Assembly (NCBI GenBank): GCA_006226595.1
Contig: SBGP01000078.1
Location: forward strand, 1 to 54,666
From: Deltaproteobacteria bacterium
GTDB taxonomy: Bacteria > Myxococcota_A > UBA796 > GCA-2862545
DNA: 54,666 bases
Direction: 5' to 3'
Each line of letters starts with the position of its first letter. Within the stretch, counting starts at the first letter, position 1. Both the position numbers and the translations under genes were made by a program. Below are positions 4,206 through 10,683 of this stretch, one piece after another. The notes beneath the pieces were generated by a model, which did not search any database, was not told where the DNA came from, and saw only the letters and a program-made list of their open reading frames with translations.

Positions 4206-5063
4206 GTGCTCACGCTGCTGCTCGCTCTGAACGCCCAGGCCCAGGAAGCTCCTGTGCCCGAGACCCCTGCGCCCACCGAGGACGCCGCCCCCGCCGAGGA
4301 CGCACCGTTGGAGGAGGCGAGCTCCGAGGATGCGCCTCCGGACGAGGTTCCCGCCGAGGAGGCCGAGCCGGAGCCGCCGAAGTCCTTCTCGATCTCGGTG
4401 GACGACAGCGATCTCGGCAGCGCCCTCGACGACTTCGACGACAAGTCGGCGCGCTACCGCGAGGAGGATCCGGATCGCCTCGACGATGCGGCATGGCGTG
4501 GCCTGCGGCCGCAGCTGTTCCGCGGGCGGTGGTTCATCAAGCCCGTGCTCGCCTGGGCCTCGCTCCAGGGCAAGGCCGCGGTGCCGCTCGGCATCGCGGT
4601 CGGCCACCAGTGGTTCCCCGCGTCGGACCATCCCCTGCAGATCTCGGGCGAGACCCGCCTCGACCTGACCTTCCCCGTCGGCGCTGCCAAGGGCCGTAGC
4701 CTCGAGCTCGCGAGCACGGCGGGACCGTGGGTGGGACCGGTGGGGCTGCGCTTCGGACCCGTGGCCCGCTTCGACCGCTGGGAGAGCGACGCCGCGCTCC
4801 TCGACGATGCCTTCGCCATGGGACTGCGCGCCACCGCTGGCCTCGACGCCAAGTACGTCAAGCCCTGGGTCGGCATCGAGCCCGTGTGGCTGCTGTCCGG
4901 CCCGCGCGAGGCGTGGAGCGCCGGCATCGGGGAGCTGTCCTACCTCGCGGGCGTGCAGTACGCGGCGCGTATGGCGCACTTCGGCTTCGCCGGCAGCATG
5001 CGCCAGACCTCGGTCGGCAACCTGTACCGCATCGCGTTCACCGTGCACGTGAGGCCCCGATGA
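4206..5063 (+). CDS. Exported protein, probable outer-membrane beta-barrel, with acidic linker
   Basis: A 285-residue protein started at GTG 4206, because AGGA lies just upstream and residues 1-13 (MLTLLLALNAQAQ) form a short signal peptide. The reading frame is open further upstream into the divergent gene's leader, but without a ribosome site. Residues 14-60 are a Glu/Pro/Ala-rich acidic linker. The rest alternates hydrophobic and polar residues with many Trp, Phe and Gly, compatible with a small outer-membrane barrel; no named family is recognised. It is the first gene of the seven-gene operon ending at 9546, and its stop overlaps the next ATG (ATGA). The coding call is firm; the barrel is inference. 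Confidence 0.72.
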   Translation: MLTLLLALNAQAQEAPVPETPAPTEDAAPAEDAPLEEASSEDAPPDEVPAEEAEPEPPKSFSISVDDSDLGSALDDFDDKSARYREEDPDRLDDAAWRGLRPQLFRGRWFIKPVLAWASLQGKAAVPLGIAVGHQWFPASDHPLQISGETRLDLTFPVGAAKGRSLELASTAGPWVGPVGLRFGPVARFDRWESDAALLDDAFAMGLRATAGLDAKYVKPWVGIEPVWLLSGPREAWSAGIGELSYLAGVQYAARMAHFGFAGSMRQTSVGNLYRIAFTVHVRPR

Positions 5064-6076
5064 TCCCGCTGATGCTCCTCGCCCTCGCCTCTGCTGGCGA
5101 AGTGGACGTCGAGGACCTCGACCACTGGCGCGCCGGCACCGACGCCATGCTCCAGGGCCCCGAGGGCTGCTGGCGCTTCGCGGGTGGCGGCCGCGTGACC
5201 CTCGCGATCTACACCCCGGCGAGCGCGTTCACCCGCGCGGGCAGCCACGAGTACGTCTCGAAAGGCACGTTCACCGGCATCCTGCGCGACGGCGTGTGGG
5301 AAGACCTCGTGTTCACCGAGACCGGCGAGGAGGGCACCTCGGAGTCCGAAGAGGGCGAGGGTCAGGTCAGCGTGTCGCTCGGCGGCCGCGAAGAGCGCTT
5401 CGACATGAAGTTCGAGCCCTCCCTGCTGTTCGGCGAGCGAAAGCAGAAGCGGCACGGCGGCAGCAGCGGCAACGCCGCCGCCGATAGCGCCGTGGACACC
5501 GCGAACGTCGTCGATCGCATCATCGCGAGCATCGACCCGGCGATCACCACGTCCTACGCCCAGTGGGACGGCGACCACACCCAGGTCGAGTTCGTCCAGC
5601 ACGTGCCGCTCTCGGACAAGGCGCGCACCAAGGAAGTCACGCTGCGCACGCTGTTCCCCGAGGGGGACAAGGCGACGGCCGTCGACGTCATCTTCCCGCG
5701 GCGCATCCAGATCTCGGACCTCGCGGACGACGACGACAAGCCCCCGTTCAAGATCGTGCTCATGGACACCCAGGCGCACCTGCGCTCCCAGCGCATCGAG
5801 GACTACGTGCTCCCCGGAGCCGAGACGGTGTCGGCCGTGGTCGGCGTGCTCGGGTTCACCGTGGGCTGGGAGCAGCGGCTCGTGTACCACGACACGCGCC
5901 AGTGCACGGCCGCAGAGCTCGCGGCCAAGGGCAACGATGGCAAGGGCGCGGCGGAGGGCGACGACGCCGATGCGGCGGACGGTGAGGCCGTCGACGGCGA
6001 GGCCGCCACGGACGAGACCGAGGCGCCAGACGCGGAGCCGACCGAGGCGCCCGCGGAGGAAACGGACGCACCCTGA
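5060..6076 (+). CDS. Exported protein with Glu/Asp-rich C-terminal tail, unknown function
   Basis: A 338-residue protein. ATG overlaps the upstream stop by 4 bp. Residues 1-12 (MIPLMLLALASA) look like a very short signal peptide. The middle (about 20-290) is soluble and rich in charged residues, with no recognised fold. The last 50 residues are an acidic Ala/Glu/Asp/Pro tail (for example AADGEAVDGEAATDETEAPD), similar in composition to the acidic segment of the preceding protein. It is translationally coupled to gene 4206 and followed 25 nt later by the first GNLMPPP lipoprotein. No function is assigned. The Glu-rich tail is of interest because the operon ends with a gamma-carboxylase-like enzyme. 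Confidence 0.75.
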   Translation: MIPLMLLALASAGEVDVEDLDHWRAGTDAMLQGPEGCWRFAGGGRVTLAIYTPASAFTRAGSHEYVSKGTFTGILRDGVWEDLVFTETGEEGTSESEEGEGQVSVSLGGREERFDMKFEPSLLFGERKQKRHGGSSGNAAADSAVDTANVVDRIIASIDPAITTSYAQWDGDHTQVEFVQHVPLSDKARTKEVTLRTLFPEGDKATAVDVIFPRRIQISDLADDDDKPPFKIVLMDTQAHLRSQRIEDYVLPGAETVSAVVGVLGFTVGWEQRLVYHDTRQCTAAELAAKGNDGKGAAEGDDADAADGEAVDGEAATDETEAPDAEPTEAPAEETDAP

Positions 6077-6079
6077 CGG

Positions 6080-6085
6080 TATGCT
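6080..6085 (+). promoter_or_regulatory. Candidate -10 (TATGCT) before first GNLMPPP lipoprotein
   Basis: GGTATGCT lies 16 nt before the proposed CTG start at 6102. The two paralogues have GGTAGGCT and GGTACAGT at nearly the same place. If this is a -10, the transcript begins after the ATG at 6081, which would exclude that ATG as the start on this transcript. Confidence 0.35.
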
Positions 6086-6091
6086 CCTCGC

Positions 6092-6104
6092 GGAGGCACC
6101 CCTG
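6092..6104 (+). promoter_or_regulatory. GGAGG ribosome site selecting a CTG start
   Basis: GGAGG at 6092-6096 is followed 5 nt later by CTG-GCC-AAG-CGT. The paralogues have GGAGG, 4 nt, then ATG-GCG-AAG-CGA (6479) and ATG-GCC-AAG-CGT (6966). The aligned position therefore points to initiation at CTG 6102. Confidence 0.6.
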
Positions 6105-6449
6105 GCCAAGCGTCGCAAGATCCACGGCACCCCGCTGCTCGTCGCATCCGCCGGCATCGGCATCTCGCTCGCCTGCGGTGGCAGCGGCGGTGGACGCATG
6201 GGGCCACCCCCGCCGCCCGGCAACCTGATGCCCCCGCCGGACAGCGAGATGGTGAGCGTGTGCGTCGATGTGCTGCCCGCCGACGCGGTGGTGAGGGTCG
6301 ACGGGGTCGAGGAGCCGTCGCGCTGCGGAGAGCGCCGCGCCGGTCGCACCGTCCTGGTCGAGGTCTCGGCACCGGGTCACCAGACGCACACCGAGAGCGT
6401 GAGCCTCACCGAGTCTCGCGAGCTCGTGATTCGCCTCGATCCCGAGTGA
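6102..6449 (+). CDS. GNLMPPP lipoprotein 1 with PEGA-like domain (CTG start)
   Basis: A 115-residue lipoprotein. The N-terminus (M/L)AKRRKIHGTPLLVASAG leads to a lipobox ending SLAC. The motif GNLMPPP follows at 6219-6239, in a Pro/Gly-rich linker. The C-terminal 65 residues read VCVDVLPADAVVRVDG...RTVLVEVSAPGH, a PEGA-like beta-sandwich repeat, with two Cys that can pair and are conserved in both neighbours. The start is CTG by comparison with the paralogues; the in-frame ATG at 6081 would add seven residues and lacks a good ribosome site. It is the first of three tandem paralogues in the operon ending at 9546. Function is unknown. Confidence 0.75.
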   Translation: MAKRRKIHGTPLLVASAGIGISLACGGSGGGRMGPPPPPGNLMPPPDSEMVSVCVDVLPADAVVRVDGVEEPSRCGERRAGRTVLVEVSAPGHQTHTESVSLTESRELVIRLDPE

Positions 6450-6457
6450 GCGCCTGG

Positions 6458-6463
6458 TAGGCT
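6458..6463 (+). promoter_or_regulatory. Candidate -10 (TAGGCT) before second GNLMPPP lipoprotein
   Basis: GGTAGGCT ends 15 nt before the ATG at 6479. It is positionally equivalent to the elements at 6080 and 6941 in front of the other two paralogues. Confidence 0.35.
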
Positions 6464-6478
6464 CGGGGTGGAGGCCCG

Positions 6479-6919
6479 ATGGCGAAGCGAAGGAAGCTCC
6501 AGGGAAGGCCGCTGCTCGTGGCTTCGGCGGGTGCGGCGCTCGCCGTGGGCTGTGGCGGAGGCCAGGTGCCCATCCGTACCGGCAACCTGATGCCGCCGCC
6601 CGAGCCGGACCACGGCGTGATCTGCGTGACCGTGACCCCCGAAGAGGCGGTGGAGACGGTGACCGTGCACGGCCAGGTGTCTTCGGGACCGGAGCACTGT
6701 GTGCCGGTGGTCGCCGAGGGCTCCGTCGTCGTCGAGGTCAGCGCGCCCGGGTACACGACCTACACGACGATGGTCGACCTCGCCGAGGAGGTGCAGCTGT
6801 CCGTGGAGCTCGAGCCCGAGGGGCCGCCGCCGCCGCCCACGGATGTCGCCCCACCGCCGGACGAGCCGCCGCCGCCCGTCGGCAACCTGATGCCGCCCCC
6901 GGAGCTGCCCCCGAAGTAG
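6479..6919 (+). CDS. GNLMPPP lipoprotein 2 with PEGA-like domain
   Basis: A 146-residue lipoprotein. MAKRRKLQGRPLLVASAG leads to a lipobox ending AVGC. GNLMPPP occurs twice: just after the lipidated Cys (6581-6601) and at the C-terminus (6881-6901), with a Pro-rich stretch before the second copy. Between them is a PEGA-like unit (ICVTVTPEEA ... VVVEVSAPGY) with the same Cys pair as the paralogues. ATG follows GGAGG by 4 nt. The twin Arg in the n-region is conserved in all three, but it is not a full Tat motif. The protein is predicted to be membrane-anchored and periplasm- or surface-facing. Function is unknown. Confidence 0.82.
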   Translation: MAKRRKLQGRPLLVASAGAALAVGCGGGQVPIRTGNLMPPPEPDHGVICVTVTPEEAVETVTVHGQVSSGPEHCVPVVAEGSVVVEVSAPGYTTYTTMVDLAEEVQLSVELEPEGPPPPPTDVAPPPDEPPPPVGNLMPPPELPPK

Positions 6920-6940
6920 GGGACGAGCGGTGCTTCGCGG

Positions 6941-6946
6941 TACAGT
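6941..6946 (+). promoter_or_regulatory. Candidate -10 (TACAGT) before third GNLMPPP lipoprotein
   Basis: GGTACAGT ends 19 nt before the ATG at 6966, matching the placement at the other two paralogues. Confidence 0.35.
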
Positions 6947-6965
6947 GCCCGCCAGTGGAGGTCGC

Positions 6966-7457
6966 ATGGCCAAGCGTCGCCGTCTGTCCGGCAAGCCGCT
7001 CCTCGTTGCTGCCGCCGGCGCGGCGCTCACCGTCGGCTGCGGCAAGCCGGCGGAGCCGGAGCCGACGCTGTGCGTGAAGGTAGTCCCGGATGACGCCGCG
7101 GCCGAGATCCGCATCGACGGTGCCCCCGCGGGGCCCGATGGCTGCGCGCCGATGTCCGAGGGTTCGAAGCGCGAGGTCCATGTCGAGGCCGAGGGCTACG
7201 ACACGGTCGAGGTCCAGGTCCCGGAGGGGCTGGACGTGATCGTGGTCGACCTCGTGCCACCGCCGCCGGAGCCGCCGGTGGGCAACCTGATGCCTCCGCC
7301 GGACCTCGAGATCGAGGAGCCGGAGCCGCCGCCGCCCCCTCCGCCGCCAGTTCGGCCGCCGCCGAAGACCATGCCGCCGGTCCCGCCGCCGGTGGGCAAC
7401 CTGATGCCGCCGCCGGAGCGCATGCCCAAGCTCGAGCCGTCCGGAGGCGAGCCGTGA
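6966..7457 (+). CDS. GNLMPPP lipoprotein 3 with PEGA-like domain
   Basis: A 163-residue lipoprotein. MAKRRRLSGKPLLVAAAG leads to a lipobox ending TVGC. A PEGA-like unit (LCVKVVPDDAAAEIRIDG ... EVHVEAEGY) carries the conserved Cys pair. A Glu/Pro-rich tail then holds two GNLMPPP copies (7281-7301 and 7395-7415), separated by a run of Pro. ATG follows GGAGG by 4 nt; an upstream in-frame alternative start lacks a ribosome site. Its stop overlaps the GTG of the diiron gene (GTGA), so these two are translationally coupled. It is the longest of the three paralogues. Function is unknown. Confidence 0.82.
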   Translation: MAKRRRLSGKPLLVAAAGAALTVGCGKPAEPEPTLCVKVVPDDAAAEIRIDGAPAGPDGCAPMSEGSKREVHVEAEGYDTVEVQVPEGLDVIVVDLVPPPPEPPVGNLMPPPDLEIEEPEPPPPPPPPVRPPPKTMPPVPPPVGNLMPPPERMPKLEPSGGEP

Positions 7458-8269
7458 CCGAGGAACTGTTCGAGCTCGAGCTCGTCGGTGGCAGCATCGA
7501 GAAGGCCTACCGCCAGATGCGACCCGAGGTCGAGGCGATGCCCTGGGGCACCCTCGATCCGCGCGAGTACCCGGAAGAGCTGATCCGTGCCGCGCGCAAG
7601 TCGTGGACCGGGGCCGCGTTTCAGGAGCACCGCACGGGAGCGGCGTGCGCGGCGACCCTGCAGTCGCTGATCGAGGCGCGGGCGCCCCTCGACCTCATCG
7701 CGCTCGCCAGCCGCTTTCCGCTGGACGAGATGGTGCACGTCGAGCTGTGCTCGCGCATCGCGATGGAGTTCGGCGGAGGCGCGGAGCTCACCTACGAGCC
7801 CGACGCGATGGTCGCGAAGATCGGCCACGGCGAGGAGCCGCTGATGAAGGCCGCGCACCAGGTGGTCGCGTTCTTCTGTGTCGGCGAGGCGCTGTCGATC
7901 CCGCTGCTCCATGGCACGTGGAAGGCGTGCACCCACCCGCTGACCCGCGCGGTGCTCAAGCGCATCGTCACCGACGAGGCAGACCACGGGACCTTCGGGT
8001 GGGCGTTCCTCGACTGGGTCCTCCCCCACCTCGAGCCCGACGACTTCGAGGCACTGGGTGCGACCGCGGACCTCGCGATCGCCGGCGTGCTCGCGAACTG
8101 GGAGGCCATCCGTCGCCGGCCGCCGGCCAGTGACGCGCACGTGCACGATCTTGGGTGGATGCAGACGGACGCCTACCTCGAGCTCGCGGAGCGCTCCCTG
8201 CAGCGCCAGGTGATGCGCCCGCTCAGCGACCGCGGCATCCCGACGCGCCCGCTGGAGGCGGCGGTCTGA
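7454..8269 (+). CDS. Ferritin-like diiron-domain protein
   Basis: A 271-residue protein with a complete diiron ligand set on a four-helix bundle: Glu58 (FQEH), Glu92 and His95 (DEMVHVE), Glu145 (VGEALS), Glu175 and His178 (DEADH). This E / ExxH / E / ExxH pattern defines ferritin-like oxidases and oxygenases. No signal peptide is visible, so it is probably cytoplasmic. The GTG start overlaps the previous stop and is preceded by GGAGG with 6-nt spacing. It lies between three lipoproteins and an HTTM enzyme. It could be an oxygenase or oxidase for that pathway, or simply an iron protein; the substrate is unknown. Confidence 0.88.
   Translation: MTEELFELELVGGSIEKAYRQMRPEVEAMPWGTLDPREYPEELIRAARKSWTGAAFQEHRTGAACAATLQSLIEARAPLDLIALASRFPLDEMVHVELCSRIAMEFGGGAELTYEPDAMVAKIGHGEEPLMKAAHQVVAFFCVGEALSIPLLHGTWKACTHPLTRAVLKRIVTDEADHGTFGWAFLDWVLPHLEPDDFEALGATADLAIAGVLANWEAIRRRPPASDAHVHDLGWMQTDAYLELAERSLQRQVMRPLSDRGIPTRPLEAAV
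8254..8268 (+). promoter_or_regulatory. GGAGG ribosome site with CTG start overlapping a stop
   Basis: GGAGG at 8254-8258 lies 7 nt before CTG 8266, which overlaps the upstream TGA as CTGA. The geometry matches the GTGA and ATGA couplings elsewhere in this operon. The next in-frame standard starts fall inside the first membrane helix. Confidence 0.5.
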
Positions 8270-9546
8270 CCCGCGCGCAGCTCGCCGAGCGCCTCTCCCT
8301 CGGTCCGCTGCCCATCGCGGTGCTGCGCATCGTCGTCGCCCTCGCCTGGCTGTCGCTGTGGGAGGTGTGGCATGCGCCGGAGTACGTGGGCTGGCCAGCC
8401 ACGGCGCATCCGTGGGGGCTCGCGGGTTTCGTGCCCGACCGTCAGCTCGCCGAGCTCGCCCGCGCGGGGGTCGTGGGTGGCGCGGTCCTCGGTGTGATCG
8501 GTGTCGGCGCGCGGCTCGGGTTCGGGCTCGTCGCCGTGTGTGGGCTGTACCTGCTCGCGATTCCACAGCTGCACGGGGCGGTGCGGCACTATCACCACCT
8601 GTGGTGGCTCGCGGTGCTGCTCGCCGCGAGCCCCGCGAGCGACGCGCTGTCGCTGCGTCAGTGGCGACCTGCGTCCGGCCGCACCCTCGCGTGGGGCCTG
8701 GCCGCCCACGTGGCGGGCCTGCTGCTCACGCTCGTGTACTTCTTCCCCGGGGTGCACAAGCTGCGGGTGCAGGGCGTCGACTGGGCCGGCGACAACCTGA
8801 CCCTGTTGATGTACTGGAAGTGGGCGCAGTCCTTCGACTTCGAGCCGCTCACCCGCATCGATCACGACCCGTGGCTGCTGTGGCTGGGGGGCCTCGGGGT
8901 GCTGGCCTTCGAGGTCTCTGCGCCTCTGTGGCTGATCAACCGAAACAGTCGTGCGCTTTTCGTGTTCTTGACATTCGGTTTCCATGCAGCGACGGCGCTG
9001 TGGTTCAACATCCACTTTGGCATCCTCGCCGTGTGTCTGGTCGTGCTGCTTCCCTGGCCCGAGGGGGTGGGCGAGGGAGCGAAGCGCCCCGTCTGGCCCG
9101 TGTTGGCGGCCGCCGTGCCACTGCTGGTCGGCGTGGTCGCCACCGGCGTGCTTGGCCGGACCCAGGCCTGGCCCTTCGCGTGCTACCCGAGCTTCGCGGA
9201 GCCCCATCGCACCCACATGCCGCTGGTCGAGGTGGTGGCGGTGGATGCGGCCGGCATCGAGCACGAGGTGGCGTCTCGGCAGCTCGCGGGCGCGGGGGGC
9301 GGGCAGCGGTGGGTGAGCGAGGTGTGGGGTGTGACGGGTCACTACGGCGTCTCCGACCCTGCGGTACTCGACGCGGCCGTACGTCGGTGGCTCGGCCGTC
9401 CCGGTGTGCGGGAGCAGGTCGTCGACGCGGAGGTCCTCCGGGTGTACCGCTCCGCCGTGGACGTGCGCCCGGACGACGTCCGCGACGGGCCTCGCTGGCG
9501 TCGAGGGCCGCTGATCTGGGAGCACCACGGCAGTCTGGACCATTGA
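8266..9546 (+). CDS. HTTM-domain membrane protein, vitamin-K-dependent gamma-carboxylase-like
   Basis: A 426-residue polytopic protein. The first helix is near residues 15-35 (PIAVLRIVVALAWLSLW), and further helices run to about 320. His108, His110 and His111 (RHYHHLWWL) and Lys165 (YFFPGVHKL, followed by DWAG) resemble the HTTM fold shared with animal gamma-glutamyl carboxylase. There the segment containing the catalytic Lys218 reads GVKKL...DW, as I remember it. The C-terminal 130 residues are soluble. I chose CTG 8266; an ATG at 8155 would overlap the diiron gene by over 100 bp. The family role is carboxylation of exported Glu residues in animals; bacterial roles are mostly unknown. Last gene of the operon. 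Confidence 0.75.
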   Translation: MTRAQLAERLSLGPLPIAVLRIVVALAWLSLWEVWHAPEYVGWPATAHPWGLAGFVPDRQLAELARAGVVGGAVLGVIGVGARLGFGLVAVCGLYLLAIPQLHGAVRHYHHLWWLAVLLAASPASDALSLRQWRPASGRTLAWGLAAHVAGLLLTLVYFFPGVHKLRVQGVDWAGDNLTLLMYWKWAQSFDFEPLTRIDHDPWLLWLGGLGVLAFEVSAPLWLINRNSRALFVFLTFGFHAATALWFNIHFGILAVCLVVLLPWPEGVGEGAKRPVWPVLAAAVPLLVGVVATGVLGRTQAWPFACYPSFAEPHRTHMPLVEVVAVDAAGIEHEVASRQLAGAGGGQRWVSEVWGVTGHYGVSDPAVLDAAVRRWLGRPGVREQVVDAEVLRVYRSAVDVRPDDVRDGPRWRRGPLIWEHHGSLDH

Positions 9547-9710
9547 AATGCGGATGAAATCTCGGCGAGCGACCTCCTCGATCAGCCCGTCCAAGTCGGT
9601 GAGAAGTCCCTTACGGTAATGGCGTGAAATCTGTATCGGGTTGCTGGGCATGATTTCGCCGGCATACGAGAAGGGTGTAAGCGAAATCTTGAATTCCATA
9701 CGGAGGAATG
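9547..9710. promoter_or_regulatory. AT-richer leader with repeated GAAATC elements
   Basis: This intergenic stretch is clearly less GC-rich than its surroundings. GAAATC occurs directly at 9556, 9626 and 9682, and inverted (GATTTC) at 9652. It is the upstream region of the exported coiled-coil gene at 9711. The minus strand is open for about 54 residues here, but that frame then runs antisense through the HTTM gene, so I do not call it a gene. A regulatory leader or a decayed gene are both possible. Confidence 0.35.
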
Positions 9711-10355
9711 ATGCCCCGCACCTATCTCACCCTGTTGTTTCTGATGACGGCTCCCTCCGTGTCCTTCGCCGCCCCGGCCGTGCTGTTCCACGTGCCGGAT
9801 GGTGCGACGGCCACGGTGGACGGCGCCGACATCGTGCTCGATGACGAGCGCGCCGCGGTCTCCGAGGCCGAGAAGGCCGTGATCGACTTCCGCGAGGAGA
9901 AGGAGGACCTGAAGGCCCGCCGCCGTGACGCTCGTCGCAGTCGCCGACACGAGACCAAGCAGATGCGTCAGGCGAAGCACGATCTTCGCAAGGCCGAGCG
10001 CAAGGACGACCTCGCACTCGCCGCCGCGGCCAAGGCGAACCTCCGCGTCGATGCGGACGAGTACGCCGACGCGGACGACCACGTCGAGTGGCACAACGCC
10101 CAGATCGACACCACGAAGGCGAAGCTCCGTCAGGCCCGCGCCGAGCGCAGTCTCGCCAAGGCCGAGCTCGAGCTCGAGCAGGCCGAGCTCCTCGAGCGCC
10201 GCGACGCCGGCATTGCTCCGCTGCTGCCCACCTCGGTCTTCGAGGGACAGGCCAAGCGGATCGAGACCCGCGCCACCATGCGGGAGGCCGATGTCACCAT
10301 CGAGGACGCCGAGTCCAGTGACGCTCACTTCGACTACTTTGCTTCGGTTCGGTAA
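9711..10355 (+). CDS. Exported alpha-helical coiled-coil protein
   Basis: A 214-residue protein. GGAGG at 9702-9706 is followed by ATGATG; the second ATG has 4-nt spacing and the first only 1, so the start is placed at 9711. Residues 1-20 (MPRTYLTLLFLMTAPSVSFA) are a signal peptide. About residues 45-165 are highly charged (Glu, Lys, Arg, Asp, Ala) and should form a long coiled coil, for example KARRRDARRSRRHETKQMRQ. No family is recognised. It is followed by a strong hairpin and then a small lipoprotein. The role may be an envelope spacer or structural protein (inference). Confidence 0.8.
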   Translation: MPRTYLTLLFLMTAPSVSFAAPAVLFHVPDGATATVDGADIVLDDERAAVSEAEKAVIDFREEKEDLKARRRDARRSRRHETKQMRQAKHDLRKAERKDDLALAAAAKANLRVDADEYADADDHVEWHNAQIDTTKAKLRQARAERSLAKAELELEQAELLERRDAGIAPLLPTSVFEGQAKRIETRATMREADVTIEDAESSDAHFDYFASVR

Positions 10356-10386
10356 ACAAACTGTAGTGAATGAGTCCTGAATCCCC

Positions 10387-10416
10387 GGCCCACCGCCCCC
10401 GTGCGGGTGGTGGGCC
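10387..10416 (+). terminator. Hairpin after the coiled-coil gene
   Basis: GGCCCACC (10387-10394) pairs with GGTGGGCC (10409-10416), with a further CCCG/CGGG inside. No T-run follows. It separates genes 9711 and 10438 and could be a terminator or an mRNA-stabilising element. Confidence 0.5.
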
Positions 10417-10437
10417 CCCCCACTCCCCGGAGTTGAC

Positions 10438-10683
10438 ATGCTTCGCGCACTTCCCCTGATTGCACTTCTCGCCGCCGTTGGCTGTGTCGAGGAGACCCCG
10501 AGCCCGACCCCCCACACGACCCACACCAAGGAAGTCACGGTGATCAAGGAGCAGGCTGCTCCGAAGCCGGCTCCCCAGGCCGAGAAGACCGGTGTCGGCT
10601 TTGCGGTCGAGGCTGACGAGGACGGCGCGTCCGTCGATGTCAGCACCAAGGAAGGCTCCGCGTCCATCGACGTGAACAAGTAG
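10438..10683 (+). CDS. Small lipoprotein, unknown function
   Basis: An 81-residue protein. The signal MLRALPLIALLAAVGC ends in a lipobox (AVGC). The mature part is Thr/Pro/Lys-rich and ends in a short acidic-polar stretch, VDVSTKEGSASIDVNK. ATG has GGAG 5 nt upstream. It is flanked by strong hairpins on both sides, so it is probably its own transcript or the end of the 9711 transcript. No family is recognised. Confidence 0.75.
   Translation: MLRALPLIALLAAVGCVEETPSPTPHTTHTKEVTVIKEQAAPKPAPQAEKTGVGFAVEADEDGASVDVSTKEGSASIDVNK

Follow-up and report, generated by a model that had tools for sequence, protein, structure and literature searches.

What might a carboxylase-like membrane protein and a diiron protein be doing beside a set of small, Pro-rich lipoproteins? 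The question is raised by a seven-gene run on contig SBGP01000078.1 of a 7.2 Mb Deltaproteobacteria bacterium genome, from which a stretch of 54,666 nucleotides (the window) was analyzed; coordinates of the locus are those of the contig. An initial annotation, made from the sequence alone, described the run as one operon in which an HTTM protein resembling animal vitamin K-dependent γ-carboxylase (GGCX) might carboxylate Glu-rich exported proteins in the envelope, or a diiron partner might oxidize them. What it overlooked is the main feature of the locus, a GNLMPPP repeat that occurs five times across the three lipoproteins. Relatives of the diiron protein are accompanied by small exported peptides with closely similar motifs, and the balance of evidence favors a system resembling those that make ribosomally synthesized and post-translationally modified peptides (RiPPs), in which an AurF-like diiron enzyme would carry out motif-directed oxidation of the lipoprotein precursors, followed in this class by a step involving the HTTM protein.

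The conserved unit and its repeated motif

Inspection of open reading frames (ORFs) located seven plus-strand ORFs in 4206-9546 at the positions first assigned to them, and the three 4-bp overlaps (5060-5063, 7454-7457, and 8266-8269) and the intergenic gaps of 4, 29, and 46 bp were all verified. Although the genes are packed on one strand in this way, they form two units rather than one. The first two, P0001 and P0002, recur as a pair in other genomes without P0003-P0007, and a single seven-gene operon was rejected on this basis. Because the pair recurs side by side without the lipoproteins, P0006, or P0007, the conserved unit to explain is P0003-P0007, which comprises three PEGA-like lipoproteins, the diiron protein P0006, and the GGCX-fold HTTM protein P0007. 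The features of this unit are as follows:

6102..6449, + strand: lipoprotein 1 (P0003), with a basic n-region, a TPLLVASAG h-region, a Cys, one GNLMPPP, and a PEGA-like domain; start at CTG 6102 or ATG 6081
6219..6239, + strand: GNLMPPP motif 1
6479..6919, + strand: lipoprotein 2 (P0004), with a PEGA domain (E = 2.4e-4) and two copies of GNLMPPP
6581..6601, + strand: GNLMPPP motif 2
6881..6901, + strand: GNLMPPP motif 3
6966..7457, + strand: lipoprotein 3 (P0005), Pro-rich, with two copies of GNLMPPP
7281..7301, + strand: GNLMPPP motif 4
7395..7415, + strand: GNLMPPP motif 5
7454..8269, + strand: P0006, AurF-like ferritin-fold diiron protein, predicted to be cytoplasmic; proposed motif-modifying oxygenase
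8266..9546, + strand: P0007, HTTM membrane protein with a GGCX fold

Mutual phmmer matches among P0003, P0004, and P0005 bear out the earlier proposal that the lipoproteins are paralogs. For P0003, the CTG at 6102 is probably the start codon, because it has the same GGAGG-spaced context as the ATG codons of its paralogs. Every Asn in the three proteins (5/5) falls inside a GNLMPPP copy. Genome-wide counts were made with DNA patterns rather than protein motifs, and the GNLMPPP pattern has no match outside the locus in the 7.2 Mb genome; the reversed-pattern control likewise gave zero matches. Among 189 genomes of the phylum, single matches to the DNA pattern are scattered at a background level, and clusters of at least three copies are found only in two genomes of the same genus, both of which carry the diiron enzyme. 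An NCBIfam scan of the peptides returned nothing above cutoff, and weak matches of P0003 and P0004 to “invert_tail” (13.9 and 12 bits versus a cutoff of 37) were discounted.

Asn motifs beside diiron enzymes

A search with P0006 over 84,980 species genomes yielded 36 loci, 35 of them usable for a peptide count. The named hosts are Myxococcota, among them the cultivated Archangium violaceum Cb vi76, whose peptide at locus L027 includes SSGNLIAPP, and the others are filed under myxobacterial, “Deltaproteobacteria,” or unspecific metagenome-assembled genome titles. In 31 of the 35 loci, small signal-peptide proteins carry the motif (G/A)NLx(A/P)P, and their genes mostly lie directly upstream of the diiron gene. 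The motif peptide of locus L010 is encoded 4.7 kb from the diiron gene, and that of L016 carries the variant CNLMAPP. Thus, when the gene order was checked in other Myxococcota, as the initial annotation had suggested, the core lipoprotein/diiron/HTTM neighborhood proved to be conserved across the phylum. Such joint conservation of a precursor gene and an adjoining modifying-enzyme gene is a property of RiPP-type systems.

The precursors share an unusually conserved leader, [RK][KP]LL[VI]A[ST]xG[VI], that ends in a lipobox-like Cys; the listed peptides have a basic n-region, an h-region, and a Cys, with the lipobox assigned by eye. After the Cys come disordered, Pro- or Asp/Ala-rich tails with one to several copies of (T/P/V)(S/V)(G/A)NLx(A/P)P, as in the typical precursor of locus L024, MSLKRPGRKLLVASIGVAAVTYVAC-SDSGSETSGNLMAPPDAGSQDDQFTSGNLVAPEPDDAGDA... 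Motif statistics were compiled for 50 peptides from the 35 loci, among which the L009 peptide is a spurious frame. These peptides contain 100 copies of (G/A)NLx(A/P)P, at 1 to 5 per peptide, compared to a mean of 0.5 and a maximum of 4 in shuffled tails, although each peptide was picked for having at least one copy and therefore only the excess beyond the first copy is unbiased. Among the 100 copies, the Asn is present in all and is followed by Leu in 99 (Ile in one), then by V, M, P, L, or I, then by Ala (66) or Pro (31), and finally by Pro (95); the residue before the Asn is Gly in 80 and Ala in 19. A core motif this well conserved (N 100%, L 99%) in an otherwise variable peptide is a further RiPP-type property. 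Motif copies account for 100 of the 145 Asn residues in the tails. Glu is not conserved: 17 of the 50 tails have at most one, and the peptides of relatives are often rich in Asp, Ala, and Gly.

Diiron paralogs at roughly 25-45% identity, in the same genome and in others, adjoin other small exported proteins. Peptides with repeated NPP (TNPP or GNPP) are encoded beside diiron paralogs at L073, in the genome that contains the window, and at L064, L065, L066, L068, L094, L098, and L103. In these loci the diiron paralog is shorter (about 220 residues), and the lipoprotein beside it has a conserved HPEGATNPPxPxLxV segment and contains NPP two to four times. We regard the pair as a second enzyme-peptide class, represented in the same genome by L073 (C9:83000-95000, positions 5264-6420). 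Further motifs are EPEVSVNP in three copies (L085, 6898-7176, + strand), SNPKGS in two copies (L080, 7092-7499, + strand), and VNEP/LNEP repeats (NEP; L060, 1041-1427, + strand). What these classes share is an Asn that precedes Leu, Pro, or Glu and has a Pro nearby.

When mapped onto a phylogeny of 83 enzymes, motif class tracks the tree and needs 8 changes, compared to a mean of 38.7 for shuffled labels. The GNL class accounts for 3 changes (26.6 when shuffled) and the NPP class for 3 (15.7 when shuffled). One universal motif for all diiron clades was also considered, but for many of the more distant paralogs, 30 of the 83 rows, a simple rule detects no motif peptide; we therefore consider an Asn motif across all diiron clades to be a moderately supported pattern rather than a law. 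Two small proteins beside diiron paralogs are of separate note. In L034 (Enhygromyxa), a CNLSVSNEP peptide is encoded at about 6663-6968 (+ strand), and in L074 (contig C27 of the same genome as the window) the neighbor, encoded at 6406-6825 (− strand), is a small exported protein that lacks an Asn motif and has a tail rich in Cys (CCWATGECCDPCCGHLSP).

The diiron and HTTM proteins and the proposed modification

The assignment of P0006 as a ferritin-like diiron protein is well founded. Its ligand motifs, E58, D91-E92xxH95, E145, and D174-E175xxH178, are invariant in an alignment of 51 sequences, and the six carboxylate and His ligands (E58, E92, H95, E145, E175, and H178) are placed on a ferritin-like bundle as in AurF-like diiron oxygenases. 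The AlphaFold2 (AF2) model (pLDDT 94) has R2lox, sMMOH, PaaA/PaaC, aldehyde-deformylating oxygenase, and VlmB as neighbors with Z values of about 17; helical bundles score high in general, and therefore the ligands and not the fold score carry the diiron argument. The AurF family (PF11583) is matched by 23 of the 51 family members (best E = 1e-8), P0006 itself not being one of them. P0006 has no signal peptide.

P0007 matches the Pfam HTTM family (PF05090; E = 9.8e-8, 32.3 bits versus a cutoff of 27.7), as do 20 of its 21 homologs, and the PGVHKL...DW segment that drew attention to the protein is present. A profile built from 21 relatives finds human GGCX at E = 3e-4 and aligns K165 to K218 and H108 to H160; two alignments, of 24 and 21 sequences, show no variation at either residue. 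The AF2 model of P0007 (pLDDT 91) matches GGCX only (Foldseek E = 4.5e-8). In a VIA comparison, 367 residues spanning positions 1-421 of P0007 align with GGCX at Z 20.7, and the next unrelated fold scores 5.8, so that the structure prediction once proposed as a check returned a whole-length fold match. In GGCX, K218 is the base, H160, W223, and F286 line the quinol pocket, and N158 and N159 bind Glu (PMC12589487). The equivalents of K218, H160, W223, and F286 in P0007 (K165, H108, W173, and F239) are invariant or nearly so. In contrast, the Glu-pocket Asn residues are replaced by V106 and R107 and are variable across the HTTM group. P0007 aligns to GGCX residues 41-490 and ends there, so that most of the propeptide-binding domain and the Arch (to residue 758) are absent. 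By alignment and by model, P0007 is judged to be a true GGCX relative that appears to keep the quinol half of the active site, whereas the Glu half is not evident.

An HTTM gene is located within 2.3 kb of the diiron gene, on either strand, in 22 of 33 loci, compared to a chance expectation of about 1% given the approximately ten HTTM genes in the window's genome. Among ten loci without a neighboring HTTM gene, in four cases the genome has a close HTTM at another site, and two of these four copies adjoin other GNL peptides (L134 and L137).

The anatomy of the locus, the conservation of the motif, the linkage of the genes, the folds, and the catalytic residues that remain are observed; from them we infer the motif as substrate, Asn as site, the order of steps, the reaction of the HTTM protein, and the biological role. 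In the proposed scheme, the AurF-like diiron enzyme would bind the lipoprotein precursors in the cytoplasm before export and oxidize the motif, most likely at or next to the invariant Asn. The modified precursors would then be exported, and lipidated if the Cys is used. In the GNL class, the membrane HTTM protein, presumed to have a GGCX-like orientation, may act on the peptides at the periplasmic face, where it would use menaquinol and O2. Oxidation of the motif by the diiron enzyme is suggested because the peptide partner is its most constant neighbor, and Asn is the likeliest site because only this residue is invariant both within and between motif classes. The initial annotation placed a diiron-catalyzed oxidation in the envelope. 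P0006 carries no export signal, and we therefore propose that it acts before export and not in the periplasm. A broader proposal, which we advance only tentatively, is that these loci represent a new peptide-modification class in which AurF-like diiron enzymes oxidize Asn motifs (GNLxAP, NPP, VNP, and NPKG) across Myxococcota and in which, for the GNL class, a quinol-using HTTM relative of vitamin K carboxylase adds a further step other than carboxylation.

Several points weigh against the proposed modification scheme. No product or activity has been observed, and P0006 matches nothing in Pfam or NCBIfam. Four of the 35 loci (L034, L036, L038, and L040) have no recognizable GNL peptide. Lipidation was assigned by eye, and some Cys contexts (“LTRC”) are poor lipoboxes. 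In 11 of 33 loci the neighborhood contains no HTTM gene, and 3 of 10 genomes tested yielded no close HTTM at any position; the HTTM protein is therefore not obligatory. The repeated motif could also be a docking or sorting tag. In that case, (G/A)NLx(A/P)P would serve in recognition, docking, or surface sorting, and the diiron and HTTM proteins would bind the tag or act on a lipid, quinone, or cell-wall component there. Such a role would suit a motif that varies in copy number and is often located only a few residues past the lipobox-like Cys, the region that carries sorting information in lipoproteins. Dedicated sorting tags, MYXO-CTERM for example, are in use in Myxococcota (PMC11980579). 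However, MYXO-CTERM is C-terminal and has another architecture, many motif copies lie far from the Cys, and the protein conserved alongside is a predicted oxygenase whose metal ligands are intact. Moreover, the Asn motif changes from one diiron clade to another, which fits substrate specificity better than one sorting tag. We consider a tag function unlikely.

Carboxylation of Glu in exported proteins by a bacterial vitamin K-type HTTM enzyme, as originally envisaged, seems quite improbable. The whole-protein GGCX fold and the retained Lys218, His160, Trp223, and Phe286 equivalents speak for it, but the Glu-pocket positions Asn158 and Asn159 are variable, the propeptide-binding region is largely missing, and the Glu-rich P0001-P0002 pair is a separate cassette. 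This part of the initial proposal is unsupported, given that the Asn residues of the Glu pocket have been lost, that the peptides show no conservation of Glu, and that Glu does not occur in the conserved Asn motif. An envelope modification system as such remains plausible given the GGCX fold, the catalytic residues, and the conserved neighborhood. SdpB is an HTTM protein, and Bacillus subtilis is positive for PF05090. It is conceivable, if highly improbable, that the small peptides encoded next to the HTTM gene are precursors of secreted antimicrobial or signaling peptides that undergo SDP-style maturation with the HTTM protein in the role of SdpB, given that SdpA and SdpB are required for SdpC processing (PMC6818787). 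The loci showed neither an SdpA gene nor an immunity-like one, the tails are hydrophilic or Pro-rich unlike hydrophobic SDP, and the window's motif is attached to a PEGA-like domain in peptides that look lipobox-retained. Finally, Pro-rich lipoproteins are common in GC-rich Myxococcota, and low-complexity examples might fall near a diiron protein by accident. This scarcely credible explanation is already refuted by the comparative data, namely the 31 of 35 loci, the roughly 200-fold motif excess over shuffles, the fully conserved Asn, and the concordance with the enzyme tree.

Neighboring features and known systems

Two genes precede the conserved unit:

4206..5063, + strand: P0001, exported, with an acidic N-terminal segment; first gene of a separate two-gene cassette, judged to be outside the system
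5060..6076, + strand: P0002, exported, with an acidic tail; second gene of that cassette, judged to be outside the system

Relatives of P0001 and P0002 are adjacent in genomes at the family and order levels (L156, G015:C144; L157, G201:C253; L158, G207:C483; L159, G204:C106), and neither lipoproteins nor P0006 nor P0007 are found next to the pair in these four loci. In the same-genus genome G015, the pair on contig C144 is followed by an unrelated gene on the opposite strand, and the lipoprotein/diiron/HTTM unit is on contig C177. P0001 and P0002 make up an independent conserved cassette consisting of an acidic-N-terminal exported protein and then a secreted protein. The acidic segments first described for both proteins are present, but the Glu content of P0001-P0006 is modest (7-10%), and the pair does not belong to the system.

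Each of the three lipoprotein genes in the window is preceded by a TAnnnT element 21-25 bp upstream of its start:

6080..6085, + strand: TATGCT, −10-like element upstream of lipoprotein 1
6458..6463, + strand: TAGGCT, −10-like element upstream of lipoprotein 2
6941..6946, + strand: TACAGT, −10-like element upstream of lipoprotein 3

In the window and its relatives, such −10-like elements lie 12-25 bp upstream of most peptide genes. They are present for 11 of 17 peptide genes compared to 0.6 expected from flanking sequence, a pattern first spotted on those very genes. This suggests that the peptide genes have individual promoters and short leaders, and with a TAnnnT element for each lipoprotein gene a single operon transcript is therefore not certain. 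Elsewhere in the window, an ORF at 3-275 (− strand) consists of GQTPQRG/GQTLQRG repeats and may represent a tandem DNA repeat, and the region 9708-10683, downstream of P0007, encodes an exported coiled-coil-like protein and a small lipoprotein.

The conserved enzyme-peptide system looks undescribed. PADLOC returned nothing for it, the literal string GNLMPPP had no match in the open-access papers searched, and no description of ferritin-like/AurF RiPPs paired with HTTM proteins was found in the open-access literature searched, Pfam, NCBIfam, or PADLOC. HTTM proteins are common in bacteria and mostly of unknown function, and the locus supplies one of them with a probable peptide partner and with a motif. 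Should this motif be modified by the diiron enzyme, the iron oxidases known to tailor exported peptides would include, next to the MNIOs, a family with a ferritin fold. The several enzyme-peptide classes within a single phylum, each with its own Asn motif, would also offer a ready-made specificity series. The system would also bear on the origin of vitamin K carboxylase, given a quinol half of the active site that is kept without the Glu half. Human GGCX shares with P0007 the fold over residues 1-421 and the equivalents of the quinol-binding and -activating residues, but it has 758 residues compared to 426, and P0007 is without the Glu-pocket Asn residues, most of the propeptide-binding domain, and an evident Glu substrate.

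AurF/VlmB-type N-oxygenases (PF11583) have the same ferritin-like diiron fold and E/ExxH/E/ExxH ligands, and some P0006-family members match their profile. However, they are 320-345 residues long, compared to about 270 or 220 in the P0006 family, and are linked to small-molecule pathways rather than to peptide genes. In the SdpAB-SdpC and YitPO-YitM systems of B. subtilis, a membrane protein is likewise needed to mature an adjacent exported peptide, as SdpB is for the SDP peptide, but these systems have no diiron enzyme and no repeated motif, and their product is a hydrophobic toxin (PMC6818787).

Precursors with lipoprotein or Sec signals and repeated motifs that are modified by iron oxidases are known from DAG-RiPPs, bufferins, and oxazolins (PMC12636315, PMC12452194). 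These MNIO systems resemble the P0006 system in their small precursors, their repeated short motifs (in their case EGKCG), and the adjacent iron-dependent oxidase, often with a membrane protein alongside. That oxidase is an MNIO/DUF692 enzyme rather than a ferritin-fold diiron protein, and no window protein matches DUF692 in Pfam or NCBIfam. In addition, no DUF2063 partner was identified here, and MNIO systems often adjoin the small membrane protein DoxX, whereas the membrane partner of the P0006 system is an HTTM/GGCX protein. Their Cys-containing core likewise contrasts with the Asn-based motif of the P0006 system, which contains no Cys.

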